A stretch of DNA of 36,440 nt from an uncultured Bacilli bacterium. Its GTDB lineage: Bacteria > Bacillota_I > Bacilli_A > RFN20 > CAG-826. Shown here in pieces: positions 13,806 to 34,661 of the stretch. A model generated the notes under the pieces. That model worked only from the letters and a program-made list of their open reading frames with translations, searched no databases and was not told where the DNA came from. The DNA is taken from positions 1 through 36,440 of the forward strand of contig CALVXH010000008.1 of the NCBI GenBank assembly GCA_944368945.1, written 5' to 3'. Made by a program: the position numbers and the translations under genes. Each line of letters opens with the position of its first letter. The first letter of the stretch is position 1.

Positions 13806-14081
13806 ATGAACTTTGTTTATGAAAGTGAAAAACTAATTGCATTAGAAAATAATATTGAATTAGGATTTATTTGGTATCAATTTAAAAATAGCGAACTAAC
13901 TATAATTCAAACTTATGTTAATGAAAATGCTAGAGGAAAAGGTGTAGCAAAACTCCTTAATGAAGAGTTATTTAAACATTTTTCAACTTTTGGTCCAATA
14001 ACATTACATATTTTTTGTTCGTACACAGAAGGATTTTACTCAAAAAATAAAGACAAGTATCCAATGTTTACTTGTAAGTAA
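13806..14081 (+). CDS. Small GNAT-type acetyltransferase (YjdJ-like)
   Basis: A 91-residue protein matching the short GNAT domain family. ETYVNENARGKGVAK-like sequence is visible as VNENARGKGVAKLL, the acetyl-CoA pyrophosphate loop (RGKGVA), followed by a C-terminal TEGFYSKNKDKYPMF typical of YjdJ-type proteins. These act in the cytoplasm on unknown amines. An AGAGGTG ribosome site precedes the ATG. It is probably the third gene of the NatAB-like operon. Confidence 0.8.
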   Translation: MNFVYESEKLIALENNIELGFIWYQFKNSELTIIQTYVNENARGKGVAKLLNEELFKHFSTFGPITLHIFCSYTEGFYSKNKDKYPMFTCK

Positions 14082-14136: not shown

Positions 14137-15069
14137 ATGAATTTGATTTTTAGAATTGGCGTAAATATTGTTAGAAAAAACATGGCAAAGCATGATATGA
14201 AAGTTAAGGCTTCTTTGCCAAAAGTAAATAAAGTTAATAAATATTTATCTTTGAATTACACAAATAATGATAAAGATGAATTTAGGAAATTTAATATTTA
14301 TAAACCAGAAAGTGAGAACAAAAATCTCCCTTTAATAATTGATATTCATGGTGGGGGATGGGTTTATGGAGATAAAGATTTAAATGATGAATACGCATCT
14401 TATCTTGCCTCTAAAGGATATAATGTTGTTACTTTTTCTTATAGGCTTTTAACAATGACTAACCTAAAAGGTATGGTAAATGATATTTTCACATTTTTTA
14501 ATCATATTTATAAAAATAAAGATTTATATAAATTGTCTTTTGATAATGTAATGATTAGTGGAGATAGTGCAGGTGGACACTTAGCATTATTAACTTTAGC
14601 AATTAATAACTCTAAAAAGCTACAAGATATTTATGAGGTAAAACCATTTAGTTTTGCGGTTGATTTTTTAGTTTTAGAGCATCCTTGTGCATTTATTAAT
14701 GAAATATTTTTACCTAATAAAGGCTTTAATAAGTTAATTAATAAATGGTATAGAGATAGCTTTTATAAACCTTCTAAAAAATCTAAAGATATAAAAGAAA
14801 ATGCTAGTTTAGACGAATTTATCAAGTATGCATCATATCCTCCTATATTAACTTGTAGTTGTACAGGAGATGATTTAATCCCTTTTTATAATAGGATGAT
14901 AGAAGTTTTTAATCAAAATAGTATTAATTACGAATCTAAAGTTTATAATGGTTTATACCACGTTTTTGAAATACTTGACTATACATTAACTGAAAGTAGA
15001 GAATTTAATGATTATAGTTTGAAACGTTTTAATGAGATTATTGCTAATAAGAGTAATAAGGAGGAATGA
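14137..15069 (+). CDS. Alpha/beta hydrolase (BD-FAE/lipase-esterase type)
   Basis: A 310-residue esterase with the hormone-sensitive-lipase-like motif HGGGW (71-75) and the nucleophile Ser144 in GDSAG (142-146). A candidate Asp lies in TGDDLIP near 248 and a candidate His in YHVFE near 273. Carboxylic esters, including acetylated sugars, are the usual substrates. The first about 15 residues are mildly hydrophobic and then basic, which may be a membrane-proximal helix rather than a clear signal peptide. The M6 protease gene begins 4 bases after it, so it probably heads the export-locus operon. Confidence 0.85.
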   Translation: MNLIFRIGVNIVRKNMAKHDMKVKASLPKVNKVNKYLSLNYTNNDKDEFRKFNIYKPESENKNLPLIIDIHGGGWVYGDKDLNDEYASYLASKGYNVVTFSYRLLTMTNLKGMVNDIFTFFNHIYKNKDLYKLSFDNVMISGDSAGGHLALLTLAINNSKKLQDIYEVKPFSFAVDFLVLEHPCAFINEIFLPNKGFNKLINKWYRDSFYKPSKKSKDIKENASLDEFIKYASYPPILTCSCTGDDLIPFYNRMIEVFNQNSINYESKVYNGLYHVFEILDYTLTESREFNDYSLKRFNEIIANKSNKEE

Positions 15070-15073
15070 TATT

Positions 15074-16684
15074 ATGAAAAAGAATATCTTAATTGGAGGG
15101 GTTAGTGTTGTTGCATTTTTAGCTTTTGTTGGTTCAATTGTTTTATTGACTACAGGTGGATTTTTTAATGATTCAAATATTATTAATAATAATGGTAACA
15201 ATAATGAGCCACCTTTTAATGAAACTCCTCAAGAAAATGGTGAATATTCAAAATTTACTTATGAGGATGTATACAAAAGTTCTTTAACTCCGGTTACGCC
15301 TTCTAAAGGAGATGTAAATATTCTAGTTGTACCAGTTGAATTCTCTGATTTAAATAGTTTTACAAGTGATAATTTGGAATTAATTAATTATGCTTTTAAT
15401 GGTTCAAACGAAGATAATACAACTTCATATTGGGAAAGTTGTAAATCATTTTACTATAAGAGTAGCAATGGGGCTTTAAATTTTAATTTTGAAGTTGCAG
15501 ATGTATTCGTACCTTCAATAACATCAACAACTTTTAATAGATATGCTGATGATTATGGTACTGAATCTTCAATGATTTTAGATGAAATCGCTGCAAAAGG
15601 CCTTACAATTAATAATAGTAGTATTAATTTTAATGATAAAAAATATGACTCAAATAACGATGGCGCTATTGATGGAGTTTGGATGATTTATAATGCTACA
15701 AGTTATTTAGACGTTTATGGTAGACAAAAATACTGGGCTTATACAACTAATTATGGTTCAGAAAATCCTACTGTACCTTTTGGAAAATATGCTAATGGTT
15801 CCATTTTGTTTTTAGGCGAAAATGGTCAACTGCCTAGAGATTCTAAAAATGCTGATGCGCATACAATAATACATGAAACAGGCCACATGCTAGGGTTAGA
15901 TGATTATTATGATTATTGTGGTGAAAATAAGTATTCTTATACTGGATTAGTCGATATGATGGACTTAAATATTGGTGATCATGATGCCTTTTCTAAATAT
16001 GCTTTAGGATGGACTAAGTCATTAGTAGTAGCTGATGAAAGAACCTTAACTTTAAAACCATTTGCAACAAGTTTTGATTCTATTATTCTTCCTAGTGGAA
16101 CTTATAATGGCTCAGCTTTTAGCGAATATTTAATTATTGAATATTATACTCCAGAAGGACTTTTTGCTCATGATAGTGAAAATAAGTATGGCGGTTTAAG
16201 TAGTTCATATCCAAAATTCTTTACTGAAAGTGGACTTAGAATTTATCATATTGATGCTAGACTTAGCGAATTTAATGCCAAATATAATATGCTTACTCAT
16301 TCGATTGAATATGAATTCGGAAATTACTTAACTGATACAAATTTATCATCGATTCCAGGATATAAAGAGAGTATGAATGGCACAGAAGCTAGTTGGACTG
16401 AAATAAGCCATACTAATTGCCCAAATGATTCTACAAGAAACAAAGATCGAAAAGCTTTAATTACTTTAGTTAGCTCTCAAAATGAACTATTATTTGGTCG
16501 TAGAGGTGCTAATAATAATGATTTATATACCGAAAATTTAAGCGATGGAAACGCTTTTAGCTATCAAGACCAGAATAAGTATTTTACAAATGGTAAATTC
16601 AATGATGGCAGTGAAATGAATTATACAATTAAAATAAATGGAACAACTGAAGAAGGAATCAACATTACAATTGGAAGAAACTAA
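15074..16684 (+). CDS. Membrane-anchored M6-family metalloprotease
   Basis: A 536-residue exported zinc protease of the immune-inhibitor-A (M6) type. Residues about 5-28 form one hydrophobic anchor or signal; a low-complexity Asn-rich linker follows (about 36-45). The catalytic signature HETGHMLGLDD starts at His267 (HExxHxxGxxD), and a Met downstream in DMMDLNIGDHDAFSKYALGW is the Met-turn region. DSNNDGAID (192-200) looks like a calcium loop. ATG 15074 is chosen for its AAGGAGG ribosome site at 15058-15064; the frame extends to 15032 without one. It could process surface proteins made by the genes downstream, which is inference. Confidence 0.9.
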   Translation: MKKNILIGGVSVVAFLAFVGSIVLLTTGGFFNDSNIINNNGNNNEPPFNETPQENGEYSKFTYEDVYKSSLTPVTPSKGDVNILVVPVEFSDLNSFTSDNLELINYAFNGSNEDNTTSYWESCKSFYYKSSNGALNFNFEVADVFVPSITSTTFNRYADDYGTESSMILDEIAAKGLTINNSSINFNDKKYDSNNDGAIDGVWMIYNATSYLDVYGRQKYWAYTTNYGSENPTVPFGKYANGSILFLGENGQLPRDSKNADAHTIIHETGHMLGLDDYYDYCGENKYSYTGLVDMMDLNIGDHDAFSKYALGWTKSLVVADERTLTLKPFATSFDSIILPSGTYNGSAFSEYLIIEYYTPEGLFAHDSENKYGGLSSSYPKFFTESGLRIYHIDARLSEFNAKYNMLTHSIEYEFGNYLTDTNLSSIPGYKESMNGTEASWTEISHTNCPNDSTRNKDRKALITLVSSQNELLFGRRGANNNDLYTENLSDGNAFSYQDQNKYFTNGKFNDGSEMNYTIKINGTTEEGINITIGRN

Positions 16685-16688
16685 TAAT

Positions 16689-17765
16689 TTGAATAAATAT
16701 TCAAATGAAGTTCTTTCCTCTAAAAAGAAGATATTATCATATTTAATTGATTATTTTATGGTAATAATTTTTACTGTTATCATTAATTTAATTTCAATAA
16801 ATTTTATTTTAAATAATATCCCTAGTGTAAAAGAAAGTAACTCTAACTTTTATACTCAATATGCAATTAATGAAAAGGTTATTGAAGATAGTTATTTAAA
16901 TGACTTTAACAGCAATAACTATTTAATGATGTTAGTAAGAAGTTCACTTGATGATTCTAATTTTCCTGGCACAGACTTTAGTAAGGTTTTACCTTTATCT
17001 AAAGAAAATGATCCTTTTTATTTATATTATTTTAAATATAAAGATAGTAATTTAGATTTATATAAAAATAATGATAATTATAATCCGAGTTTATATTATG
17101 AAACTTTGAATAAATCAGATTATTTTATTTTTAATAATGATTATTATGCTTTAAAAGAAGATGTCGCTTTAAAAGTTGGAGATAATATTTTTAATAAATC
17201 TAGTAGTAATGAAACATTAAAAAGTGAAGTACTTAACGTCATAAATAAAATATATAATGAAGCAACTAATGATTTAAAAGCTAATAATATAACCTACATT
17301 AATTCTTTAAATTTACTAGAAAAGTCTGCAAATTTAACTAAAAATTATAATTTGATTAATTTATCTATCTCTTATTTGGTAGGGTATTTAATTTATTTTT
17401 TAATTTTACCTTTTATAAATAAAAATCATAAAACAGTCTCAATGATTATCTTTAAATCATATAAAGAATATAAGTATGAAAGTAAAACCTTATCTTTAGT
17501 ATTATTAAATATAGTTAGATTTATTATTTTTTATTCTTCAATATTAATAAGTGGATATTTAAGTTTAGGATATTCAATGACTTTAATTTTATTTAATGAA
17601 TTTAATAATATTTATTACCTATTATTTATTATTTTATTTACTTTACTTTTATATATATTCTCTCTTTTAATAAGTTTAATTAAGCCATTAAATCAAAACT
17701 TTGAAGATAAGCTTAGTGGAATTATATATAAAGATGAAACAAAGGTAATTATAAATGCTAAGTAA
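16689..17765 (+). CDS. RDD-like membrane protein with large external loop (first of pair)
   Basis: A 358-residue protein with one N-terminal helix (about residues 12-38), an Asn/Ser-rich extracytoplasmic region of about 190 residues, then three further helices. It resembles its neighbour downstream: each has a lone first helix with a conserved LID/LDI Asp, and a KNHKTVSMIIFK or RDHATLAMKIFK motif after the second helix. That motif is typical of the RDD family, whose role is poorly known. Start is uncertain: TTG 16689 has GGAAG 11 bases upstream and follows the protease stop by 4 bases; ATG 16638 lies inside the protease gene with no ribosome site. Confidence 0.7.
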   Translation: MNKYSNEVLSSKKKILSYLIDYFMVIIFTVIINLISINFILNNIPSVKESNSNFYTQYAINEKVIEDSYLNDFNSNNYLMMLVRSSLDDSNFPGTDFSKVLPLSKENDPFYLYYFKYKDSNLDLYKNNDNYNPSLYYETLNKSDYFIFNNDYYALKEDVALKVGDNIFNKSSSNETLKSEVLNVINKIYNEATNDLKANNITYINSLNLLEKSANLTKNYNLINLSISYLVGYLIYFLILPFINKNHKTVSMIIFKSYKEYKYESKTLSLVLLNIVRFIIFYSSILISGYLSLGYSMTLILFNEFNNIYYLLFIILFTLLLYIFSLLISLIKPLNQNFEDKLSGIIYKDETKVIINAK

Positions 17766-18678
17766 TGTTATCCATTATAAAAGAGTAGGTTTAATTAAAA
17801 GAACATTTGTCGCTATTTTAGATATTGTTTTTTTATTAGTTTTAGTATTTATACTTTTATTTACTTCTTTAGGCATATTTATTAATACAAGTTACTTCAT
17901 TTCATCTAATGAAACTTTAATTTCTATTAAAAATGATTCTAAGTTATTTAAGGATAATATTGAATATTCGTATATATTAAAAAATGATGATACATTAACC
18001 ATAAATGAAAAAAGTGAACGCTTAAATGAAGTTATTACTAATTTTTACATTTCTTTAGATAATCTAGATTTAAATAATAACTACTATGAAAGTTATTTAA
18101 ATAGAAAACTTGAAGCTAAAAGTAATGACTTAAATTTATTTGTTAAAGTTAATGAAGAAGTAATTAGAAGTAATAATGGAATTAGTGATACAACTTATTT
18201 TGATTTTTATTTAAATGAATATAGTAGTTATAGTGTGCCAATATTATATGGGACTAATGAATATGAATCTATTTCTAAAAATATAGTTATGATTAATTTA
18301 ACTATTATTGTTATATCTATCTTAATAAGTGGATTAATTATATACTTAGTTTTTCCTTTAATTTTTAAACGAGATCATGCGACTTTAGCAATGAAAATAT
18401 TTAAATTAGGCTTAATAAATCAAAATGGATTATCTTTAGAAAATAAAGAATTTCTTTTTAGATTTTTATTTTTATATATAGTGGAATTTATTTTAGGAAT
18501 ACTTTCTTTATTTATCATTCCTTTAATTTCTTATTCATATATGATCTTATCTAAAAAGGAATCTCCTTTTCACGATGCCTTAATTAATGTATTAATGGTT
18601 GATAAAAACATGAATAAAATTTATCTAAATAAGAATGAATATTTAAAGGATGTAAATAGTTTAATTAGTATAAACTAG
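17755..18678 (+). CDS. RDD-family membrane protein (second of pair)
   Basis: A 307-residue protein with TM1 at about 15-42 (KRTFVAILDIVF, the Arg/Asp of the RDD motif), an extracytoplasmic region to about 175, TM2 near 180-205, the motif FKRDHATLAMKIF, and one or two C-terminal helices. RDD proteins are proposed to act as transporters or assembly factors, often beside exported-protein genes. An AAAGG ribosome site (17741-17745) precedes the ATG, which overlaps the previous gene by 11 bases, so the pair is translated together and probably forms a hetero-oligomer. Confidence 0.75.
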   Translation: MLSNVIHYKRVGLIKRTFVAILDIVFLLVLVFILLFTSLGIFINTSYFISSNETLISIKNDSKLFKDNIEYSYILKNDDTLTINEKSERLNEVITNFYISLDNLDLNNNYYESYLNRKLEAKSNDLNLFVKVNEEVIRSNNGISDTTYFDFYLNEYSSYSVPILYGTNEYESISKNIVMINLTIIVISILISGLIIYLVFPLIFKRDHATLAMKIFKLGLINQNGLSLENKEFLFRFLFLYIVEFILGILSLFIIPLISYSYMILSKKESPFHDALINVLMVDKNMNKIYLNKNEYLKDVNSLISIN

Positions 18679-18944
18679 CGATGTAATCAAGATTTTTTCT
18701 ATCAAGATAATATTAAGAAATTGTTAATTTTGATATAAAAACTTAAATAAACTTTAAAAGTAACTTTTAAACAAGTAAAATATCGTTAGAGAAATGAACT
18801 TATCTATAGTCCTACGAACTAATCATTTTTTATAAAAGTAGATTTAACTACAGATATTTTTTAATGTGAAAAAACATTTTCTCAAACGGGTGATATTCTT
18901 TAAGAAATTGCCTCAATTAAATTTTTAAGTTATAGGGAGATAAT
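18679..18944 (+). promoter_or_regulatory. 266-base upstream region of the TasA-headed gene
   Basis: No coding frame is seen here. A perfect 19-base palindrome (TTTAAAAGT-A-ACTTTTAAA) lies at 18753-18771 and may be an operator or a small hairpin at the end of the RDD operon. Several short stems follow (for example around 18862-18880). I found no match to a riboswitch that I can recognise. An AGGGAGA ribosome site near 18934 precedes the ATG. Confidence 0.4.
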
Positions 18945-21900
18945 ATGAAAAAAACTGCAAAAATTTTAATTGGCGTTCTTAGTGTTGGTGCCTTAATTGG
19001 AACTGGCTATGCAACTTGGCACATTAGTGGTGGCTTTACAGGTGATGAAGCTGAACTTCTTCCTGGAGTTGAAACAGTAGTTGATAAAAACTTTGGTTAT
19101 ATTGAAGTTACTGCTGTCGATGGAGATGACTTTATCAATTTTGATGGCGATGCTAATGACGACTTAACAATAAGTTATATGGTTAAAGCTTTTCCTAATA
19201 AAGGAAGCGATAGAGATCCATATGATTTAAAAAATTATGAAGGAATCGCTAATGAATATATTCCTAACTTAAAAGTTGAGACTATTGTTAAAGAAGGTGA
19301 TGTTGAATTAGGAAAAGATGATCCTTTCTTTGACTATGTTGATTTACCTTCAAGTGCTGCAATTGATTATAAAACGTGGTTAGCAAGTGAATATAAAGAT
19401 ACTGGCTATAAAGTAACATTAAATTTCTCTTGGTCAAAAGAGACATTAGGCGGACAAAATCCTGAACAGGCTTGGAAAGGATTATCAACAAGTGAACAAC
19501 AAGCAAATTATGATAGTTTAATTGATGCTTTAAGCAATGTTAAATTTACATTTAAATTTATTGTCGGAAATGATGATGGTGTTATTGAAGAACCAGGCAC
19601 AGAGGAGCCAGATCCAGAAGAACCAGGTACTGAAACACCAGTAACTCCTACAGAAGGTGAATGGGTTAATTTTGGTGGAACACTTGGCTATACTGATGTA
19701 TATCAAGTCACAGAAGATAAAGAAAATAATTCATACAATGTAACTTATACAGATATAGGTGGTATGAGTTATAAGAATTTTGTTTTCAATTTAAAAAATG
19801 CTAGTAGCTATAATCATATAAAATTTACTGTAAAAAATAATGGTGAAAATCTTGTTCAAGCAAGAACTGATGTTAATACTTCAGTTGCAGGTGGAGGAAC
19901 AAGTACTAATACAAGTTCATTAAATTTATCTGCAACTCAAGATGGAACTGCAATTAGAACAGATACTGACTGGGGTGGCAGTTTCTATAACATTGATGCA
20001 GGTCAAGAAACTACTGTTGAAATTGTATTCTCAGGTGATGCTAGTATATTAAGTTTCTTCTTTGATAGTTCAACAAATGATGAATTACTTAGAAGTGGAA
20101 ATTTAACAATTAGTAATATTCAACTCGCTTATATTAATAACGAAGTAGAAGAGCCAGCAGAAGAAAAATATAAAACCATTTATATCAAAGATTTAAAAGG
20201 CTTAAATAATTTTGGTAGTCAAACATTCATTTATGCCTGGAATTCAAAAGATGCAACAATCCAAAATGCAAGTTATCCTGGAATAAAGATGGATACATAT
20301 TGTTGGAATGTATTTGATGATGAGGCTAGTATCTTTAAAACCGAACTTAACATTGGAAAGTATACAGATTTCTTGATTTCATCCTTCTTAAATGGAAATA
20401 ATCCTTATGCTGAAGGTGCTCAGCCAAATGGAAAAACTAGAGACATCTCAATAAGTGAACTTGGAGATAATGATTTTGTTAAATTTAGTACAATTGATGA
20501 CAGTTCAAAACTTTATGATGTAACATTTGATAATTTTGATAAAGCGATAGACCCATATAAAGCTAATATAAATTTAACTTATGATGAAACTAAAGGTTCT
20601 GTTTCTTTTGAAAATAAAGAACATTTTAAGAATGAAACAATGCTATTAAACATTGAACCAAATTCTGGTTGTGTTATAAAATCTGTTACTTTAAATGGTG
20701 AAACTGTCGAAATTGGTAATGATGGAAAGTATTATGTAACACTTACAAATGGCGATAATAATATTGAAGTTATTTTTGAAGATACAATTAAATATGGAAC
20801 TCTAGAACTAACAAATAACGAGTATGTTGCGATAAGTGCAACTATTGATGGTGAAGCAGTTACTACAACACAATTACCTGTTGGAACAACCGTAACTTTA
20901 AATTTTGAGACATTAGTTGATAATTATGAAATTGAAGATGTTTTACTTAATGATACAACTTCAATTTATAATGAAGGTAGTTCGTGTAGTTTTGAAATTG
21001 TTGAAGGTACAAATAAAATCACTGTTGTTGGCAAAACAATTGCAACAAGTGATGCATTTTCAAATCCAAAAGTTGTCGAGCCTTCAGAAATTGTTAATAC
21101 CGAAAACGAATCAACATATTTTGAAACAACTTGTTTAGTAAGTGGCTTAAGAAATAATGGATTTTATATTTCAGATCCTAATAATCTTGATTTAAAGATT
21201 GATTGCAATTTATTATATTCAACTGAAGAAAAATTAATCGACAATTCTGAATACATTGATGGAAAATATAAAGTTATTAAAAATAATGAGAGTTCTGATA
21301 AATTTGATGCTGATTCTTTAGATGTCGGTGATTTAGTTAAAGTACGTGGATTTACAAATTCAACAGGTTACTTTAAAGGTGTATTACTTGAAAAAGTAAA
21401 GGATTCAAGTGAAATTGATTACGATATTAATGTTACTTGTGAAGAAGGTGGAAGTGTAACTGCTTCTAGGACAGCTGCTCCTGTAAATACAGAAATTACT
21501 TTAGATATAACTTGCCCAGCAAATAAAGAAATAGACACTGTTACTTTAAATGGATCGCCACTCAGTACTGAGAATGGAAGTTATAAATTCTTATCATCTT
21601 TTGTTAATAATATTGTTGTAACTTTTAAGGATGTTGGCGTCCTCACATATCAACCTCTTGTGATTGATGTTAATAGTTTAAAAAGTATTGAAGGAAGTTA
21701 TGGGGACGGAAAAAATGATACGCTTAATATAATTGATAGTGATGGTAATATTTATCCTGTTGAATTTTCATATTTCGCATGTAGTCAAAAAAATAAACTT
21801 CAGTTCAAGGATTCTTCTTATATTAAAAATTTAGACGCTTTACCTGCAGAAATTGATTATATAAAAATTAATGATTTTACAGATGCTAACAATAATGAAT

Positions 21901-22076
21901 TAGATGTTACAAATAAATTTTTGTATTCTTTTTCAGAAACAACTTTGGATAAGGGTGAATTTATAAATGAGTCAGATACTTTAAATTCTACTATCGATAA
22001 CGCAAAATATTTTGCATTAAATTCAAATTACAATAGAAGTTTCAGAGTTTCGTCATTCACAATTTATTTTAAATAA
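18945..22076 (+). CDS. TasA-headed multidomain exported protein with OB-fold and InlB-like repeats
   Basis: A 1043-residue protein. Residues 1-about 30 carry a SipW-type signal (VGALIGTGYATWHISGG); about 30-205 resemble a TasA/camelysin head. A Pro/Glu linker (EEPGTEEPDPEEPG) follows near 210-230. About 235-405 look like a carbohydrate-binding jelly-roll, and about 410-530 recall a CBM26-like module; both are tentative. Next come InlB/Flg_new-like repeats (about 535-615 and 615-695), an OB-fold-like segment (about 710-825) with VGDLVKVRGF, another repeat (about 825-900) and a unique C-terminal domain. No sortase motif is present. It is the main predicted client of the signal peptidase encoded two genes downstream. 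Confidence 0.75.
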   Translation: MKKTAKILIGVLSVGALIGTGYATWHISGGFTGDEAELLPGVETVVDKNFGYIEVTAVDGDDFINFDGDANDDLTISYMVKAFPNKGSDRDPYDLKNYEGIANEYIPNLKVETIVKEGDVELGKDDPFFDYVDLPSSAAIDYKTWLASEYKDTGYKVTLNFSWSKETLGGQNPEQAWKGLSTSEQQANYDSLIDALSNVKFTFKFIVGNDDGVIEEPGTEEPDPEEPGTETPVTPTEGEWVNFGGTLGYTDVYQVTEDKENNSYNVTYTDIGGMSYKNFVFNLKNASSYNHIKFTVKNNGENLVQARTDVNTSVAGGGTSTNTSSLNLSATQDGTAIRTDTDWGGSFYNIDAGQETTVEIVFSGDASILSFFFDSSTNDELLRSGNLTISNIQLAYINNEVEEPAEEKYKTIYIKDLKGLNNFGSQTFIYAWNSKDATIQNASYPGIKMDTYCWNVFDDEASIFKTELNIGKYTDFLISSFLNGNNPYAEGAQPNGKTRDISISELGDNDFVKFSTIDDSSKLYDVTFDNFDKAIDPYKANINLTYDETKGSVSFENKEHFKNETMLLNIEPNSGCVIKSVTLNGETVEIGNDGKYYVTLTNGDNNIEVIFEDTIKYGTLELTNNEYVAISATIDGEAVTTTQLPVGTTVTLNFETLVDNYEIEDVLLNDTTSIYNEGSSCSFEIVEGTNKITVVGKTIATSDAFSNPKVVEPSEIVNTENESTYFETTCLVSGLRNNGFYISDPNNLDLKIDCNLLYSTEEKLIDNSEYIDGKYKVIKNNESSDKFDADSLDVGDLVKVRGFTNSTGYFKGVLLEKVKDSSEIDYDINVTCEEGGSVTASRTAAPVNTEITLDITCPANKEIDTVTLNGSPLSTENGSYKFLSSFVNNIVVTFKDVGVLTYQPLVIDVNSLKSIEGSYGDGKNDTLNIIDSDGNIYPVEFSYFACSQKNKLQFKDSSYIKNLDALPAEIDYIKINDFTDANNNELDVTNKFLYSFSETTLDKGEFINESDTLNSTIDNAKYFALNSNYNRSFRVSSFTIYFK

Positions 22077-22079
22077 TCT

Positions 22080-22265
22080 ATGAAAAAGTTTTTACTTGGC
22101 ATATTAATATTATCAGCTTTAGTAGGAACTGGATTTTGTATTCGGCATGTTTCTGGCATTTTGCCAGAAACTGTCGAAAAAGAAGTTACACCTACTATTG
22201 GCTTTGAAAAAGAAGAGACTACTTTAGAAGAGGAAGAACCTTTAATTGAAGAGTCTAATATTTAG
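22080..22265 (+). CDS. 61-residue peptide with SipW-type signal
   Basis: The N-terminus (SALVGTGFCIRHVSGI) closely mirrors that of the large protein before it (GALIGTGYATWHISGG), so both should be cut by the same peptidase. What remains after the signal is about 30 residues and very acidic (EKEETTLEEEEPLIEESN). It begins 3 bases after the previous stop, has no ribosome site and is likely translated by coupling. It may be a small matrix or chaperone subunit, a regulator of the peptidase, or the remnant of a longer TasA-like protein. The gene is supported by position and the conserved signal. Confidence 0.65.
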   Translation: MKKFLLGILILSALVGTGFCIRHVSGILPETVEKEVTPTIGFEKEETTLEEEEPLIEESNI

Positions 22266-22280
22266 AAAGAGTTTTTTATA

Positions 22281-23219
22281 ATGAATAAAGAAACCATACT
22301 TATTATATTGTCTATTTTAATGTTAACCATTGTTTTAGGTTTACTTATTTTAGTAATGCATGAAGTTTATGTTACTAGTTTAGAAAATATGGGTAATAGA
22401 AATAAAATGGTTAAACAATATAAAAAGGATATTGCTTCAAGGGTTGAAAAAGTTAATGTTAATAATAGAGTAATTGTTTATCAACATTTTGATAGTAGAT
22501 ATGGATATTCTGAAGAAAGAGTAACTCCTGAAATGAATCCTGTTTATAAAGATAAGACAATATATTTTTATAAAAAGAATAAAAATAAATATATTAAAGG
22601 TCTAAGAATCTTTTTAGATGTATTTTTTATTGTTATCTTTTTAGGTATTTTAGGATTTAATATTTATTCAAAAGTAACTAATTCACTTTATTCAATTAAT
22701 GGAACGACATATATAACTATAGCTACTGGATCGATGGCTACTAAAAATGAAGAAAATACCTATTTAACTATGAATTCATTGGATAATCAAATTAAACAAT
22801 TTTCTTTAATTGGATTAGACAAAGTCGAAGATCCTTCAAATTTAAAAGTATATGGTATATATGCTTATAAAAATGAAGATAACCAATTAATAGTTCATAG
22901 AATTATTAAAAGTGAAGTTATCGATAATGAAGTTTATTATACGTTTAGGGGTGATGCTAATACAAAAAGTGATTACTTTTTAGTTAACGCTAAAGATGTT
23001 CTATATGAGTATAGTGGTTATCAAAATGTGCCACTTGGATACTTTTTAAGTTTCTTGAGTTCTATAGTTGGCATTACAGCATTAATTTATATAGTTGTCG
23101 CTTTAAGCTTTAATGATTATTTTGATAGCAAAAAAGAAGCAAAATATAGAGTTGGCTTAATGGATTATTTAAATGATTTAAATAAAGAAGAGACTGCAAA
23201 ACTCTATTCTTCCATTTAA
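22281..23219 (+). CDS. SipW/ER-type signal peptidase I with extended N-terminus
   Basis: A 312-residue membrane serine protease that removes signal peptides. The nucleophile is Ser151 in IATGSMATK. The general base position has His206 (LIVHRII) instead of the bacterial Lys, and RGDAN with Asp225/Asp231 follows; this Ser-His-Asp form marks the archaeal/ER/SipW type. SipW of Bacillus matures TasA and is about 190 residues; here about 100 extra N-terminal residues add another helix (6-28) and a cytoplasmic segment before the usual TM (109-129). A C-terminal helix (about 255-277) is also present. Its clients are most likely the two preceding proteins. Confidence 0.88.
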   Translation: MNKETILIILSILMLTIVLGLLILVMHEVYVTSLENMGNRNKMVKQYKKDIASRVEKVNVNNRVIVYQHFDSRYGYSEERVTPEMNPVYKDKTIYFYKKNKNKYIKGLRIFLDVFFIVIFLGILGFNIYSKVTNSLYSINGTTYITIATGSMATKNEENTYLTMNSLDNQIKQFSLIGLDKVEDPSNLKVYGIYAYKNEDNQLIVHRIIKSEVIDNEVYYTFRGDANTKSDYFLVNAKDVLYEYSGYQNVPLGYFLSFLSSIVGITALIYIVVALSFNDYFDSKKEAKYRVGLMDYLNDLNKEETAKLYSSI

Positions 23220-23236
23220 AATTTTTAGGAGAAAGT

Positions 23237-26074
23237 ATGAAAAAAAGCAAAAAAATACCTGTTTACGTTTTATCATCGTTACTTATTTTAGGATCGATTA
23301 GTTTAGTATCTTGTACAAATGATACAAGCGAAACAACTGAGACTAAATATAAAGTTGCATATACTGAAAGTAATGAATATACAGTTACTGGATTAAAAGA
23401 AGAAGGATATCTTGAAGGTGAAGATGTTTATTTTAAAATTGTTGTTAATGACACTACAAAAGAAGTTGATTCGGTAGTTGTAAATCAAACTAAACTTGTA
23501 GCAAAGGATGGAACTTATTCTTTTAAAATGCCTGCTAGTAATGTTTCTTTATCTATAACTTTAAAATCTAAGGAAACAACTCCAGGAGGTGATGAATCTG
23601 GTGATGATGACGAAGATCCTGTTGTTACTGGAGATACTGTTGAAAAAATTAAATCTGGTGAAATTACTGTTGGTTCATTTGTTACATTAAAAGGAAAAAT
23701 TACTTTAACTTCAGGCACTAGTGCTTATTTGTCAGATTCCACTGGTGGTATTTTTATATATAATTGGAGCGATAATGAAAATGATACTGCATTAGTTGAT
23801 GGAAATTTTACTGCGGGGGAATTTGTTGAAATCCATGCAAAAGTTGCGGTAAATACTAATGGTGGAGGCGCTTTACAATTATCATCATATGAAAATGGTG
23901 GTCGTATAGAAGAAGCATATGCTAAAAAATTAACTGAAGAAATTAAAGTTAGTGAGCCTATAAAGTTAGATGAAGAAGCTTATAAAAAGTTAGAAATAAC
24001 TGATACTGGAAATTTATACACTTTTGAAGCAACATATGTTCAAGGTGTTCCTGAATTAGATAAAGCAGCTAACATTGAATTTAAAATAGGCGAAACATCA
24101 ACAACATTAAGAACTGATGGCAATAGTTATAAAATGTATGATGCTAATATTGATAAACTTGTAACTGATTTTGAAGCTTTAGATTTGACAAGCGGAGATA
24201 AGGTTACAATTACAACAGCATTAAGTTGGTATAATGGTCCTCAATTCTCTTATTTTGGCGATGGCACAGTTATTACTAAAAACGAAGTAAGTGCTACAGC
24301 AATTACCATCAGCGCTGATAAAAAAGAATTACTTGTTGGTGAAGAAACGACCTTAAACCATACATTAACTCCAAGTGGTGCTTCAGCGAATGTTTCATAT
24401 GAAATAACTGACGGAAAAGATGTTGTTAGTTTAAAGGGTAACGTATTAACAGCTTTAAAAGCTGGCGAAGCTCATGTTGTAGCTAAAACAGCCACATTAA
24501 CAAGTGAACCATTATTAATAACAGTAACTGAAACAGAAAACCCAACAATTACTATTGAACCAAGTGAAAAAACAATATATGTTGACGAAACTTTTACTTT
24601 AAATACCAAAGTTATTGGCGTTGCTAATTACGAACTAATTTACGAGTCTAATAATGAAGAAGTTGCAACAATTGAAAATTCTATAGTTCATGGACTAAAA
24701 GAAGGTGTTGCTACTATTACTGTATCATTAAAAGACAAGCCAGATGTTAAAGCTAGTTGTACTGTAACAGTTAAGGATGTAGATTTTTCAATTGGTCAAA
24801 TTAAAAAAGAAGGCGAGACTTATACAGTTAAAGGTGTAGTTGCTGCGACTACAACCCAATCATTTACTATTAATGATGGTGTTGATGGTATTTTAGTTTA
24901 TTGTGGTAAGGAATATTCGCAAGAATATAAAATTGGTGATTATCTAAAAGTAAGTGGTACTACGACTATTTATAATGGATTATTACAATTTGATAATAGC
25001 GAAGGTGGTACTAAAATAGATAAAATTACTAATGAAACAGTTCCAACATTACCTACAGCTATTGATTTAACTAGTGAGATTGTTTCTTCATGGAAATCTA
25101 AAGCGTCTGAAGAAGTAAGCACATTAACAACCAGTGACGTAAAACTATATAAACGGAGAGCAGCTTGCGATGAAACTGGTGGATATGAGACATTAAATCT
25201 TGATGGATGTGACATTGATATCGAACCATCATATTTACTTGATTCTATTAAGTTAGAAAAAGGAAAACTTTATGATGTTGAAGCGTATTTTAATGGCTAT
25301 TCAACAAGTCATGATTATGCTAGCGTTATTGTTAAAAGTGCAACATTAGTAGAAGAAACTATTGATGCAACTGATGTAAAAATAAATGCTACATCAACAA
25401 CTTTAGGTGTTAATGAAAAACTAACATTAACATATACAACTACCCCTCAAATAGTTACTACTACACCAACTTGGTCAAGTAATAATGAAGAAATTGCTAC
25501 TGTTGATCAAAATGGTGTTGTTACGGGTCTAAAAGAAGGTGAAGTCAATATTACAGTTGCTTTTAGCGACACTGTTAAAGATACAATTAAACTCACTATT
25601 AAAAATCAAACTATTTTATATTCAAAAGTTTATGAATATACGAGCGATACTCAACCTAGTGGTAATTCACAATATAATGGAGTAGTTGAAAGTGTAGATG
25701 ATCTATTTGTAGATTCAAATTATCCATTAGTTGCTAGTACTAGTACTTTTAAAGGTTATGTTGATAAGAATGGCTTGCCTGGTGTTAAACTTGGCTCAGG
25801 TAGTTATTCTGGTTCCTTAACTTTAAATTTAAACGATCCTACTGCCAAGATAACTAAAATTCAGATTCAAGCCATTTCTTGGGCTAAAAGGAGTCCATCT
25901 ATTATCGCATATCGTGGTGAGACTTTAACTGGCACATATCAAGATATGGAAGGTACAACTGTAGCTAGTTATACATTTGATTTAAGTGGACAAACTGGTG
26001 ATTCAATTACTATTGCTAATGAAAAGAAAAATCAAGCTTTTATAATTACTGGAATAGTAATTTATGGCGAATAA
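23237..26074 (+). CDS. Large surface lipoprotein with Big2 and OB-fold-like modules
   Basis: A 945-residue lipoprotein. The lipobox LVSC places the lipidated Cys at residue 26. In order: an InlB-like module (about 35-112), a Gly/Asp linker, an OB-fold-like segment (about 130-340, beginning VGSFVTLKGKITL), Big2 immunoglobulin-like domains (about 350-432 and 433-515), a second OB-like segment (about 517-700, VKGVVAATTTQSF), a third Big2 domain (about 705-790) and a C-terminal beta-rich domain ending FIITGIVIYGE. OB modules of this kind accompany extracellular nucleases such as YhcR, and a nuclease gene follows directly. A nucleic-acid-binding or nuclease-partner role is inferred. An AGGAG ribosome site is present. 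Confidence 0.78.
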   Translation: MKKSKKIPVYVLSSLLILGSISLVSCTNDTSETTETKYKVAYTESNEYTVTGLKEEGYLEGEDVYFKIVVNDTTKEVDSVVVNQTKLVAKDGTYSFKMPASNVSLSITLKSKETTPGGDESGDDDEDPVVTGDTVEKIKSGEITVGSFVTLKGKITLTSGTSAYLSDSTGGIFIYNWSDNENDTALVDGNFTAGEFVEIHAKVAVNTNGGGALQLSSYENGGRIEEAYAKKLTEEIKVSEPIKLDEEAYKKLEITDTGNLYTFEATYVQGVPELDKAANIEFKIGETSTTLRTDGNSYKMYDANIDKLVTDFEALDLTSGDKVTITTALSWYNGPQFSYFGDGTVITKNEVSATAITISADKKELLVGEETTLNHTLTPSGASANVSYEITDGKDVVSLKGNVLTALKAGEAHVVAKTATLTSEPLLITVTETENPTITIEPSEKTIYVDETFTLNTKVIGVANYELIYESNNEEVATIENSIVHGLKEGVATITVSLKDKPDVKASCTVTVKDVDFSIGQIKKEGETYTVKGVVAATTTQSFTINDGVDGILVYCGKEYSQEYKIGDYLKVSGTTTIYNGLLQFDNSEGGTKIDKITNETVPTLPTAIDLTSEIVSSWKSKASEEVSTLTTSDVKLYKRRAACDETGGYETLNLDGCDIDIEPSYLLDSIKLEKGKLYDVEAYFNGYSTSHDYASVIVKSATLVEETIDATDVKINATSTTLGVNEKLTLTYTTTPQIVTTTPTWSSNNEEIATVDQNGVVTGLKEGEVNITVAFSDTVKDTIKLTIKNQTILYSKVYEYTSDTQPSGNSQYNGVVESVDDLFVDSNYPLVASTSTFKGYVDKNGLPGVKLGSGSYSGSLTLNLNDPTAKITKIQIQAISWAKRSPSIIAYRGETLTGTYQDMEGTTVASYTFDLSGQTGDSITIANEKKNQAFIITGIVIYGE

Positions 26075-26092
26075 TTAAATTAATAATAAACT

Positions 26093-26126
26093 GTTTTAAA
26101 AATGGCCTTTGTGCCATTTTTAAAAC
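26093..26126 (+). terminator. Intrinsic terminator after the Big2/OB lipoprotein gene
   Basis: A 14-bp perfect stem (26093-26106 with 26113-26126) has a 6-base loop and a run of five T in the descending arm. It leaves only 15 bases to the next ATG, so some read-through probably feeds the nuclease gene. Confidence 0.75.
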
Positions 26127-26141
26127 TATAGGTGAATAAAT

Positions 26142-27632
26142 ATGAAAATTATGAAAAGATTATTAGTTTTAGGAATAGCAGGATTTGCATTAACTAGTTG
26201 TGAAGGAAGCAATAACACAATTGAAAAATATGAATTTTCTTTAATATACAATGATAATGAATGTAAAGTTAACTCTTCACATATTAATGGAATATATTCT
26301 GAAGGAACTTTGATAAGTTTATCAATTGAGCAAAATGAAGATTATGTATATACAGGAATTTATGAAGACGATACATTAGTTACATCTGATTTAAATTACT
26401 TTTTTATACTTAACGAGGATACTTCTTTAACCATTAAATGTGAGAAAGTGATTCACAATTATGATTTTAAAATTAATATAGTAGGTGAAGGAAGTGTTAG
26501 TGGATCAAGTAGCGGAAGTTACATTGAAGGAAGCACGATTTCTTTAAATGCTACGCCAAGTGAAGGTTATCATTTTGATGGATATTATGAAAATGAAACT
26601 TTATTAAGTAATGATGAAGTTTATACATTTAATATATCTAAAAATACTGAAATTACTGCAAAATTTACCTTAAATCTTCCAAAATATTCTTTTTCAATTA
26701 CTTCGTCAGAAGGTGGAGTAGTAAGTGGAACAACTAGTGGAAGTTATGATGAAGGAACAAAAATAGAATTAAGTGCTACTCCATTAAGTGGATATAGATT
26801 TGATGGATATTATGATAGTAATGACATTCTTGTATCAAGCAGCAAAACCTATAGTTTTGTGCTTAAATCCAATACATCATTAATTGCTAAGTTTATAGAA
26901 ATTGGCGAAACTGACTTTCCTAATGATACAGAATTAGTATATACAATTACTCCTGGAAGTAATGGTGTAACTAAAACTGCTTATGATGTAGTTCCTATTA
27001 AAGAATACTATGCAAGTTTTGATACTTCTTTAACTGGCGAAGAATTAAGAGATGAAATTCGTAGAGTAACTAAAGTTAAAAAATATTATGGTTATTCATC
27101 TACATCTGATTGCTTAAGTTATATTGATGAAAGCCTTTCAAATCCAGGTAAGTTATTAGGAATATATGATGGTAAAAGCATTAATTATCCTTGGGATGGA
27201 GGAAGCACTTGGAATAAAGAACATATTTGGCCTCAAAGTAGATTTGAGGGTTTATCAAATCATAGTACAATAAAAGGTGATATGCATAATTTAAGAGCTT
27301 CAACCCCAAGCGTTAATTCTAGTAGAGGTAATAAGCCATATAATGAAAAAACTGACTCGACTTATTATTATCCTAATTTAAATAATAATGTTGATTTTAG
27401 GGGTGATGTAGCTAGAATGCTATTTTATATGTATGCTCAATATGAAGATCTTAAACTAGTTGAAAATCCTAGTGGAGGATTAGAAATGGGTAAACTAAGT
27501 GTTTTAATTGAATGGAATAAACTTGATCCTGTTGATGATTTTGAAATTCAAAGAAATATGAAAGTTTCTCAATATCAAGGGAATAGAAATGCATTTATTG
27601 ATTTCCCTTATTTAGTTGACCAACTATTTTAA
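26142..27632 (+). CDS. Lipoprotein endonuclease I (His-Me finger) with InlB-like repeats
   Basis: A 496-residue surface nuclease. Lipobox LTSC gives lipidated Cys20. Three related modules (about 25-110, 110-180 and 182-255) show GSYxEGxxIxLxATP and GYxFDGYY motifs, the divergent InlB B-repeat pattern. Residues about 265-496 are an Endonuclease_1 domain: NKEHIWPQSRF near 357 (His-Me metal-binding motif), then KGDMHNLRASTPSVNSSRGN and a C-terminal WNKLDPVDDFEIQRN. This family degrades DNA and RNA without strong sequence preference, outside the cell here. An AGGTG ribosome site lies upstream. Its stop overlaps the convergent methyltransferase stop by 3 bases. Confidence 0.92.
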   Translation: MKIMKRLLVLGIAGFALTSCEGSNNTIEKYEFSLIYNDNECKVNSSHINGIYSEGTLISLSIEQNEDYVYTGIYEDDTLVTSDLNYFFILNEDTSLTIKCEKVIHNYDFKINIVGEGSVSGSSSGSYIEGSTISLNATPSEGYHFDGYYENETLLSNDEVYTFNISKNTEITAKFTLNLPKYSFSITSSEGGVVSGTTSGSYDEGTKIELSATPLSGYRFDGYYDSNDILVSSSKTYSFVLKSNTSLIAKFIEIGETDFPNDTELVYTITPGSNGVTKTAYDVVPIKEYYASFDTSLTGEELRDEIRRVTKVKKYYGYSSTSDCLSYIDESLSNPGKLLGIYDGKSINYPWDGGSTWNKEHIWPQSRFEGLSNHSTIKGDMHNLRASTPSVNSSRGNKPYNEKTDSTYYYPNLNNNVDFRGDVARMLFYMYAQYEDLKLVENPSGGLEMGKLSVLIEWNKLDPVDDFEIQRNMKVSQYQGNRNAFIDFPYLVDQLF

Positions 27633-28348
27633 GACTTCAAAGAATCAATTCTTTGTTTAGCAATTTTATAGTATTCTGGATTTTTTTCTATACCTATAAA
27701 ATTTCTTTTTAGTTTTTTTGCAACGAAACAAGTGGTGCCACTTCCCATAAAAGGATCTAATACCATATCCCCTTCATTAGAAGTTGCTTTTATTATTCTA
27801 TCTAAAAGTTCTTCTGGCTTTTGAGTTGGATGATAGCCGAACTTTTTTTCATTCATCTTAACGGCTTGAATATTCCAAACATCATGCATTTCTTCATTAT
27901 CGACTTTATACATATCTTGATAATTAAATGTTTTACATCTATCTTTGCATGCCCATATTATAAATTCATACGAAAATTTAAATTTGTTTTTAAAAATTAG
28001 TGGTGGAGGGTCAATTTTATGCCAAATAACAATGTTTTGAATCTTAAAACCCATTTCGATTAAAGCTTCCCTTATATCAAAAATATTATGTTGAGTCCCA
28101 CTAATCCAAATTGAACCTCCAATTTTTAATATTCTATAGCATTCTTTTATCCATGTTTTAGTGAACAAATGTATATCCTTATAGTTTTCTTTTTTATCCC
28201 ATTCGCCTTTGTTCACCGAAACAATTTTTCCACTATGTATGGTTAATCCATTATTAGACAAAAAATATGGCGGATCTGCAAATATTAAATCTATTTTATT
28301 ATCTTTTATTTTTTTCAACACATTTATACAATCTCTATTTAGCAACAT
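27629..28348 (-). CDS. Beta-class DNA adenine methyltransferase (DpnA-like), divergent copy
   Basis: A 239-residue methyltransferase with motif order IV then I, the beta class: catalytic DPPY at 25-28, a central region with IWISGT, then YHPTQKPEELL and the AdoMet-binding DPFMGSGTT near 200. It is clearly paralogous to the plus-strand enzyme at 29498 (shared FADPPYFLSN, VSVNK, WISGT.HNI, HPTQKPE and KFIGIE-type blocks). DpnA-type enzymes methylate GATC-like sites, including single-stranded DNA, in DpnII systems. It is divergent from the XRE-Dam fusion across a 107-base promoter region and has the same AGAGGTA ribosome site. Confidence 0.88.
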   Translation of the reverse strand: MLLNRDCINVLKKIKDNKIDLIFADPPYFLSNNGLTIHSGKIVSVNKGEWDKKENYKDIHLFTKTWIKECYRILKIGGSIWISGTQHNIFDIREALIEMGFKIQNIVIWHKIDPPPLIFKNKFKFSYEFIIWACKDRCKTFNYQDMYKVDNEEMHDVWNIQAVKMNEKKFGYHPTQKPEELLDRIIKATSNEGDMVLDPFMGSGTTCFVAKKLKRNFIGIEKNPEYYKIAKQRIDSLKS

Positions 28349-28378
28349 AAAAGTACCTCTATATGTACAACAATTTGA

Positions 28379-28407
28379 AATTATCTTTTTTTATAAAAAA
28401 TGTTAAT
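28379..28407 (-). promoter_or_regulatory. Promoter of the divergent methyltransferase
   Basis: On the minus strand, TTAACA (28407-28402), a 17-base spacer and TAATTT (28384-28379) form a plausible promoter. The -35 lies 8 bases from the palindrome at 28416-28441, so a bound regulator could also affect this gene. Confidence 0.4.
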
Positions 28408-28415
28408 TAAATATA

Positions 28416-28441
28416 TTATGTGTGTTAAAATACACATAATC
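28416..28441. promoter_or_regulatory. Palindromic operator on the XRE-Dam promoter
   Basis: ATTATGTGT (28416-28424) and ACACATAAT (28433-28441) are perfect inverse arms around an 8-base centre. The arm and centre include an extended -10, TGTTAAAAT (28424-28432). A dimer bound here would block the promoter of the XRE-Dam fusion, whose own HTH domain is the obvious candidate, giving negative autoregulation. The site is seen directly; the binding partner is inferred. Confidence 0.65.
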
Positions 28442-28455
28442 GATAGAGGTAATTT

Positions 28456-29496
28456 ATGCTACAATCACAATTTGGGAATAGGGTTAAAGAAATCAGACTA
28501 GGCCAATCAATTTCTCAATTAGAATTGGCTAATAGAACAGGAATAGAGAGAGCACAAATATCAAAGATTGAACAAGGCAAAATAAATGTTACATTAGAAA
28601 CTATTGAAAAAATAAGTAAAGCGTTAAATGTTCAATTAAATGATCTTTTAACATTTGATAATCCATATAATGTTAGACCATTTGTTAAATGGGCAGGAGG
28701 CAAAACTCAATTATTAAATAAAATAAAAGAATTGCTTCCTATAAACTATAATCGATATTATGAACCTTTTGTTGGAGGAGGAGCGTTATTTTTATATTTA
28801 GCTCCAAAAGAAGCTTTTATTAATGATATAAATAAGGAACTAATCTCTGCTTATTTATGTTTTCAAAATGATTATTTATATGATTCATTGGTTAGAGAAT
28901 TAGAAAGATGTGAGAACGAGCATTCTCAAGAATTCTATTATAGAGTAAGAGAGATTGATAGATTGCCAAATTTCTCAACTCTTCCTATTTCAATACACGC
29001 AGCAAGATTAATTTATCTTAATAAAGCATGCTTTAATGGCTTATACAGAGTTAATGCAAAAGGGTATTTTAATGTGCCTTCGGGAAACAAAGAGAAAGTT
29101 AGGACGTTTGATAGGGATAATTTTATTGCATTAAAGAAATATTTTAGTAGTGCTAAGATTCACATTAGCTCTACTGACTTTGAAGAAGTTGTAGGTAGTG
29201 CACAAAAGGGCGATTTTGTTTATTTTGATCCACCTTATGATGTATATCCAAATAAAAATGGTTTTGTTGACTATAGTAAAGAAGGTTTTAAAAAAGAAGA
29301 ACAAGAGCGTCTTGCTAAAACTTTTAAAAACTTAAACGAAAAAGGTGTATATGTCATGTTGTCTAATCATAATACGGAGTTTATAAATGAACTTTATAAA
29401 GACTTTAATATTCATGTTGTTAAGGCTAAAAGAATGATTAACTCTAAGGCTGATGGCAGAGGGGATGTTGAGGAAGTTTTAATAACTAATTACTAA
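28456..29496 (+). CDS. XRE regulator fused to Dam-type (alpha-class) DNA adenine methyltransferase
   Basis: A 346-residue fusion. Residues about 1-66 form an XRE/Cro-type HTH (SQLELANRTGIERAQISKIEQG). Residues about 72-346 form a D12-class N6-adenine methyltransferase of the Dam/DpnM group: FVKWAGGKTQLL (76-87), the AdoMet motif EPFVGGGALF (103-112), INDINKELI, and the catalytic DPPY at about 258. Relatives methylate GATC on duplex DNA. An AGAGGTA ribosome site lies 5-11 bases upstream. The fused HTH and the palindrome on its promoter suggest the protein times expression of the restriction operon that it heads. Confidence 0.92.
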   Translation: MLQSQFGNRVKEIRLGQSISQLELANRTGIERAQISKIEQGKINVTLETIEKISKALNVQLNDLLTFDNPYNVRPFVKWAGGKTQLLNKIKELLPINYNRYYEPFVGGGALFLYLAPKEAFINDINKELISAYLCFQNDYLYDSLVRELERCENEHSQEFYYRVREIDRLPNFSTLPISIHAARLIYLNKACFNGLYRVNAKGYFNVPSGNKEKVRTFDRDNFIALKKYFSSAKIHISSTDFEEVVGSAQKGDFVYFDPPYDVYPNKNGFVDYSKEGFKKEEQERLAKTFKNLNEKGVYVMLSNHNTEFINELYKDFNIHVVKAKRMINSKADGRGDVEEVLITNY

Positions 29497-29497
29497 A

Positions 29498-30274
29498 ATG
29501 AAAAAAATAAAATTAAATGAATGTTTTACTATTATAGAGGGTGATTCTTTTAAAGTTTTAAAAACGATTGATAAAAAAAGTGTTGATATGATATTTGCTG
29601 ATCCTCCATATTTTCTTTCTAATGGTGGTGTTAGTTGTCACTCAGGTAGACAAGTAAGCGTCAATAAAGCTAGTTGGGACATTACTGATATGAGCATAAA
29701 AGAAAAGATATCATATTCTAGAAAATGGATTAGGCTTTGCAAGGAAATTTTGAAAGATAATGGTACTATTTGGATCAGTGGAACATTACATAATATTTAT
29801 GTAATTGGTGTTGCTTTGGAATATGAAGGATTTTCTATCATTAATAATATCACTTGGCAAAAGAGTAATCCTGCTCCCAATTTAGCATGTCGATGTTTTA
29901 CTCATTCTACCGAAACAATTTTGTGGGCAAGAAAAGTTTTAAGTAATGGTAAAAAAGGTAAGCATTATTTTAATTACAGTTTAATGAAGTCAATTAATGG
30001 AAATAAGCAGATGAAAGATGTATGGATGATAAATCTACCAAAAAAAAGTGAAAAACAATTTGGGAAACATCCAACTCAAAAGCCAGAAGCTTTACTTGAA
30101 CGAATCATATTGGCATCAACAAAAGAAAATGATGTGATTTTAGATCCGTTTGCTGGCAGTGGAACTACTGGAATTGTTGCTAGTAAATTGAAAAGAAAAT
30201 TTATTGGTATTGAAAATCAAGAAGAATATATAAAACTAATTGTAAATAGATTCAATGAGGTAAAGAAAATATGA
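29498..30274 (+). CDS. Beta-class DNA adenine methyltransferase (DpnA-like), operon copy
   Basis: A 258-residue enzyme with DPPY at 35-38, IWISGTLHNIY in the middle, then KHPTQKPEALLERI and AdoMet motif DPFAGSGTT near 216. It corresponds to DpnA (M2) of DpnII-type systems, which protects single-stranded or incoming GATC DNA. It starts one base after the Dam fusion stop and has no close ribosome site, so coupling is likely. The restriction gene overlaps its end by 4 bases. Confidence 0.9.
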   Translation: MKKIKLNECFTIIEGDSFKVLKTIDKKSVDMIFADPPYFLSNGGVSCHSGRQVSVNKASWDITDMSIKEKISYSRKWIRLCKEILKDNGTIWISGTLHNIYVIGVALEYEGFSIINNITWQKSNPAPNLACRCFTHSTETILWARKVLSNGKKGKHYFNYSLMKSINGNKQMKDVWMINLPKKSEKQFGKHPTQKPEALLERIILASTKENDVILDPFAGSGTTGIVASKLKRKFIGIENQEEYIKLIVNRFNEVKKI

Positions 30275-33584: not shown

Positions 33585-33585
33585 T

Positions 33586-34569: not shown

Positions 34570-34586
34570 TTAAAAATTTACAAACT

Positions 34587-34605
34587 ATAAAATTAAAAAT
34601 TTTAT
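34587..34605 (+). promoter_or_regulatory. Small inverted repeat before the binding-protein gene
   Basis: ATAAAATT and AATTTTAT flank AAA in the 92-base gap after the second permease. Downstream, TATATT at 34627-34632 could be a -10 for a separate strong promoter of the binding protein. This is common in importer operons, where the binding protein is made in excess. Both are weak calls. Confidence 0.3.
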
Positions 34606-34661
34606 TTCCGGTGCCAATTGTTATATTATATTAAGGTGATTTAAGTAAGGGAGGAAACTTG

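Follow-up and report, generated by a model that had tools for sequence, protein, structure and literature searches.

Loci for the degradation of DNA have been described in Candidatus Izemoplasmatales, where extracellular nucleases, phosphohydrolases, importers and a large exported nucleic-acid-binding protein are encoded side by side (Wasmund et al., 2021, PMC8289736). Similar loci are present in Hujiaoplasma (PMC10470597), and a small form occurs in mycoplasmas as operons (MAG_5040 and relatives) in which an SNase lipoprotein is encoded beside a sugar-type solute-binding protein, an ATPase and two permeases (PMC3585158). The window analysed here, a stretch of 36,440 nucleotides that constitutes contig C8 of G000, the 1.6-Mb draft genome (a 93%-complete assembly) of an uncultured gut bacterium of the Bacilli, is probably one end of such a nucleic-acid utilisation locus in an auxotroph of the Onthovivens lineage, with an accessory fibre cassette. 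The lineage name rests on a related locus (L065), that of Candidatus Onthovivens merdipullorum, among ten loci with relatives of the signal peptidase in the window, the others of which come from gut Bacilli. Compared by description, the locus resembles that of the Izemoplasmatales in the neighbourhood of nuclease, phosphohydrolase, importer and exported binding protein genes but belongs to gut bacteria from a different Bacilli lineage and has pairs of RDD proteins, an M6 protease and a SipW/TasA-like cassette. With the mycoplasma operons it shares the SNase lipoprotein and its transporter partners, but it adds OB lipoproteins, endonuclease I, 5'-nucleotidases and RDD proteins. The first-pass annotation of this stretch stated that no described system with this set of parts is known. 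This kind of locus is known already without a fibre cassette (PMC8289736; PMC3585158); no paper in which it is united with a cassette of the SipW/TasA type was found in the literature searched, which was incomplete.

All nine open reading frames (ORFs) of the reported gene set, from an esterase to endonuclease I, were recovered at their places on the + strand, as were all genes and domains of the locus given below with coordinates in the window, and comparison with the genomes of relatives reveals that they form the end part of a larger locus. Two RDD proteins, UgpC-type ABC importers, solute-binding lipoproteins, an SNase lipoprotein and an OB-fold lipoprotein are linked in these relatives, and endonuclease I and 5'-nucleotidase are linked to the locus in part of the genus. 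The locus runs past position 27632 and, after a restriction-modification island, continues with an ABC importer (31204-36287) that consists of a UgpC-type ATPase (31204-32649), which directly follows the nuclease in the same-genus genome G009, two permeases (32649-33584 and 33586-34569) and a solute-binding lipoprotein of the SBP_bac_8 type (34659-36287; PF13416, 66.6 bits). A further contig of G000, C33, bears genes for UgpC, 5'-nucleotidase, two RDD proteins, a second UgpC, permeases, a solute-binding protein, an SNase lipoprotein and an OB lipoprotein, and because of the gene order in G009 it seems that C8 continues into C33, the locus being split by the contig end. Apart from the island, G009 has every gene in the same order, beginning with the ABC exporter ahead of the block and ending with the importer behind it, which argues that the arrangement is more than chance. 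Complete runs of the locus are present in G001, G009 and G016. In G001 some 22 kb encode the esterase, the M6 protease, a UgpC ATPase, two RDD proteins, a second ATPase and two permeases, followed by a solute-binding lipoprotein, the SNase lipoprotein, an OB lipoprotein, endonuclease I and two 5'-nucleotidase lipoproteins. The same parts recur in G016, with the M6 gene at 40 kb and the cassette, which there comes after endonuclease I, at 77 kb; in G000 and G009 cassette, OB lipoprotein and endonuclease separate the RDD pair from the ATPase, two elements between which G016 has no insert.

Linkage was counted over 59 relatives, assuming a uniform genome size, and owing to the kinship among these genomes the counts are not independent. 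SNase and RDD genes are found within 20 kb of each other in 31 of the 37 genomes that have both (about 2 expected), SNase and 5'-nucleotidase genes in 20 of 39 (1.6 expected), RDD and M6 genes, with only the stronger M6 matches taken, in 8 of 13 (1.3 expected), and endonuclease I and RDD genes in 8 of 31 (2.6 expected); one RDD position, that in G006, came from a separate profile search. Endonuclease I was rejected as a constant partner of the locus because it is near SNase in just 6 of the 30 genomes with both. Missing linkage in related genomes, named as fatal when a surface system for extracellular nucleic acid was first suggested, thus came true for some of the parts. Genes for exported nuclease, phosphohydrolase and importer are linked as in the described type of locus, in G000 over C8 and C33. 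Moreover, neither purH nor pyrB was found in any of the 19 genus genomes searched, and nearly all control genomes gave matches; these absences point to auxotrophy for purines and pyrimidines and fit a need for import of nucleobases or nucleosides. The linked SNase, 5'-nucleotidase, importer and OB lipoprotein genes, the OB folds and the missing purH and pyrB support the original suggestion that the locus is concerned with extracellular nucleic acid.

The OB lipoprotein of the window (23237-26074; 945 residues) has three Big_2 stretches and a weak Pfam OB match (7e-4). Its first OB region (residues 136-339; 23642-24253) matches an OB profile, and its second (residues 523-692; 24803-25312) was modelled by AlphaFold as tandem OB folds with a mean pLDDT (predicted local distance difference test) of 89 and two OB-like halves, to which the closest solved folds are the Sulfolobus single-stranded DNA-binding protein (1o7i, Z 8.4), RPA, Pot1 and HIN-200 (2oq0, E 5e-5), all of them DNA-binding. 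The predicted OB fold of the second region is a confident model, and the outcome that had been named as fatal to the suggestion, a prediction devoid of OB folds, did not occur. Judged from this model the lipoprotein may bind nucleic acid, a shared fold not being proof of binding. With a profile built from it, OB regions were detected in many genomes in lipoproteins whose genes neighbour that of endonuclease I or SNase, and endonuclease I adjoins or is near an OB lipoprotein in G000, G001, G006, G009, G017 and G019. Endonuclease I itself is a lipoprotein of 496 residues (26142-27632) with its catalytic part at residues 354-489; it scores 92.3 bits with PF04231, whose cut-off is 25, has relatives among the solved endonuclease I structures and contains the motifs EHIWPQS and HNLRAS. 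Just upstream of its gene lies a perfect 14-bp inverted repeat (26093-26126; GTTTTAAAAATGGC...GCCATTTTTAAAAC) with no T run after it on the + strand, possibly a regulatory hairpin or an operator. A promoter scan returned fewer sites than were found in shuffles.

Inserted between the RDD genes and the OB lipoprotein gene is a cassette that encodes a long exported TasA-like protein (18945-22076), a SipW-type minipeptide of 61 residues (22080-22265) and a SipW-like signal peptidase I of the endoplasmic reticulum type (22281-23219; Ser151, His206). The motifs GSM (residues 150-152) and HR (206-207) of the peptidase are invariant in 11 sequences, and since it stays below the equivalog cut-offs (NF046067, 55.6 of 190 bits; TIGR02228, 44 of 51.85) it is, by its sequence, a relative of SipW and not a SipW equivalog. 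A full-length ortholog is present in nine genomes of the genus including G000, and within the genus these nine genomes, and no others, also encode the long protein's head. The order of long protein, short peptide and peptidase is kept in G000, G009, G006, G016, G017, G025 and G020 (in the last over two contigs), the middle gene encodes 172 residues in G007, and in G019 a second, short head protein takes the place of the minipeptide. As in tapA-sipW-tasA of Bacillus subtilis, SipW-type main and minor exported proteins adjoin the peptidase; unlike there, the gene order differs, the head of the main protein is outside PF12389 and followed by a long adhesive tail, and a folded domain is missing from the minor protein. 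The cassette adjoins endonuclease I in four of the nine genomes (G000, G009, G016, G025), so that the dedicated system that had been envisaged is not a single constant set of parts; M6 genes are near the cassette also in G017 and G020. In the trees of peptidase and head, G016 and G025 group with G017 or G020 and not with G000 and G009, so that the linked genomes belong to two non-sister clades and the union of cassette and nuclease either arose twice or was lost repeatedly. This conserved cassette of long protein, minipeptide and peptidase, linked to the nuclease in two non-sister clades, is what is novel here.

The long protein consists of a SipW-type signal peptide, a head (residues ~24-215) and a variable tail; the signal peptide and the neighbouring SipW relative agree with TasA and camelysin. 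In seven of the nine genomes (G006, G007, G009, G017, G019, G020 and G025) the tail includes an OB domain, and matrix proteins of this kind might hold DNA. The minipeptide, a candidate minimal TapA-like initiator, exists in its short form in seven genomes, where it measures 50-70 residues, has a tail variable in length and sequence and starts 2-15 bases behind the gene of the long protein, and because of this conserved position it was rejected as a chance ORF. It has no clear ribosome-binding site, and its ratio of nonsynonymous to synonymous substitution (dN/dS) is about 0.5, over 42 codons only. For its exported part the score is 26.3 with the heads but 20.5 with a set of 30 other SipW-type proteins, and shuffling lowers it to 19.9 (standard deviation 0.5); the score is highest, 36.3, against the head of its own genome (p 0.0006, permutation), as would be expected of a TapA-like donor segment, and with tryptophan read at residue 22 the sequence ...GTGFCIWHVSG of the peptide faces ...GTGYATWHISGG of the head. 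TapA(1-57), to which the minipeptide is close in length, suffices for biofilm formation in B. subtilis (PMC10151520), and by analogy the minipeptide, given the likeness of its exported part to the N-terminus of the head in the same genome, may be a natural minimal TapA.

Residue 22 is very probably tryptophan, although its codon (22143-22145) is CGG in G000 and G009 and arginine in the standard code; five other genomes have TGG, and CGG has been reported to encode tryptophan in Onthovivens (PMC13092985) and in a clade of the RFN20 order (PMC8629427). CGG is very rare, with two occurrences in the 31 genes of the window. Five such codons were seen in sampled genes of G000, namely the one in the minipeptide, codon 640 of the OB lipoprotein gene (23237-26074) and those in L042, L043 and L044, and for each of the five, some or most of the homologs have tryptophan at the aligned position. 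The 93%-complete assembly has 34 tRNAs, none of which was recognised as one for CGG, and other expected tRNAs are missing from it as well.

How could these parts act together? Surface lipoproteins with tandem OB folds would bind DNA or RNA freed in the gut, endonuclease I and the SNase lipoprotein encoded on C33 would cut it, 5'-nucleotidases would remove phosphate, and solute-binding lipoproteins with UgpC-type importers would take in nucleosides or short products. The M6 protease would probably release nucleic acid from bound protein or trim the surface layer. The TasA-like protein, the minipeptide and the SipW-like peptidase would form the accessory fibre cassette, in which maturation of the two exported proteins would fall to the peptidase, assembly would begin from a free N-terminal strand of the minipeptide, in the manner of truncated TapA(1-57), and the variable tails, mostly of the OB type and in G000 of a carbohydrate type, would supply the ligand of the fibre. 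It could even be imagined that OB-tailed TasA-like filaments, started by a donor-strand peptide of 50-70 residues that is in effect TapA minus its folded domain, retain nucleic acid on which the cell's own nucleases and importers then act, an extension that we put forward only tentatively.

A number of points weigh against the locus being what we propose. UgpC-type importers carry mostly sugars, and the cassette is apart from the nuclease in five of the nine genomes. The name TasA given in the first-pass annotation agrees with the signal peptide and the neighbourhood but not with the sequence of the head, as PF12389 gave no match at E<1 and none genome-wide; the alignment of the heads, searched by sequence against the PDB, gave no match either. 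The AlphaFold model of the head, built from ten sequences only and without confident structure for residues 1-38, has a pLDDT of 70, and in comparisons by Foldseek and VIA-align the TasA fibre 8aur (Z 3.9, 118 aligned residues, root mean square deviation 3.9 Å) is tied with other sandwiches, so that a TasA fold is not established. No OB domain was found in the long protein of G000, even with filters off, or in that of G016. The match of the minipeptide to the head weakens to p 0.027 when the first eight residues, those next to the cleavage site, are dropped.

Some of these points also favour an alternative that has a considerable, if less than even, chance of being right, namely that the cassette serves general adhesion or matrix formation by binding polysaccharide, such as mucus or beta-glucan, and merely neighbours the nuclease locus without shared function. 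In G000 the long protein, besides having no OB domain, contains a tail module (residues 235-403; 19647-20153) that is 76% identical in amino acids and 84% in DNA to a module of a GH16 lipoprotein on contig C6, the source or recipient, which has several of these in tandem and is encoded beside a GH3-type enzyme (both within L053 113-6288); the module is in no other long cassette protein. This identity suggests that the module is probably carbohydrate-binding and points to a recent module exchange, and the long protein of G000 may accordingly hold carbohydrate as well or instead. The separation of the cassette from the nuclease in the five genomes fits this alternative, too. However, cassette and nuclease are linked in two non-sister clades with differing arrangements, and seven of the nine long proteins bear the OB domain of the nuclease locus.

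For the locus as a whole, an unlikely alternative is that the importer is an ordinary transporter for sugars or glycerol phosphate and the nuclease serves for phosphate only. The ATPase is indeed UgpC-like and the solute-binding protein of a broad sugar-type family, but nucleosides proved to be the substrate of a Mycoplasma bovis importer whose annotation was glycerol transporter (PMC12838404), and mycoplasma SNase genes occur in operons with such importers (PMC3585158). About as unlikely is a role of nucleases and M6 protease in defence or dispersal, directed at neutrophil traps or the biofilm DNA of rivals, since for all the nearby M6 gene and the discussion of mycoplasma surface nucleases in both roles (PMC9740415), the fixed linkage to importers and 5'-nucleotidases and the missing purH and pyrB favour nutrition.

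The front of the block begins with a conserved small acetyltransferase gene (Acetyltransf_CG, 13806-14081; Pfam, 39 bits), and a short gene is at the same position before the esterase in G009, G001, G012, G016 and G025. The alpha/beta-hydrolase esterase (BD-FAE/Abhydrolase_3, 14137-15069; BD-FAE 94.7 bits) adjoins the M6 gene in the same genomes, G001, G009, G012, G016 and G025. The M6-family metalloprotease (15032-16684), whose start is probably the ATG at 15074, has an HETGH motif (residues 281-285) and matches TIGR03296 (E 9e-21) with 74.9 bits, under the cut-off of the model. RDD-like membrane protein 1 (16638-17765) gave no Pfam RDD match and is recognised by a profile built from RDD-family membrane protein 2 (17755-18678; PF06271, 42.6 bits). 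The M6 and first RDD genes overlap by 47 bp (16638-16684), and the equal length of the overlap in G009 (L033 14888-14934) suggests coupled translation. The restriction-modification island between nuclease and importer (27629-31125, ~3.5 kb) encodes two N4/N6-type methyltransferases, a D12 methyltransferase with a helix-turn-helix and a DpnII-type endonuclease; G009 has only ~230 bp at this position (L033 3469-3696). Elsewhere in G000, on contigs C51 and C7, three more SipW-like peptidases (L042, L043 and L044) are each encoded among several SipW-type exported proteins of ~220-290 residues, and in some cases an ABC ATPase or exported proteins of very large size are encoded next to them; this genome of 1.6 Mb has many parallel SipW export systems.

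If the locus is indeed a nucleic-acid utilisation locus, a nucleotide-auxotrophic gut lineage would feed on the DNA and RNA that surround it. If the proposed role of the minipeptide is true as well, donor-strand fibres outside Bacillus may start from a peptide barely larger than the donor strand itself.

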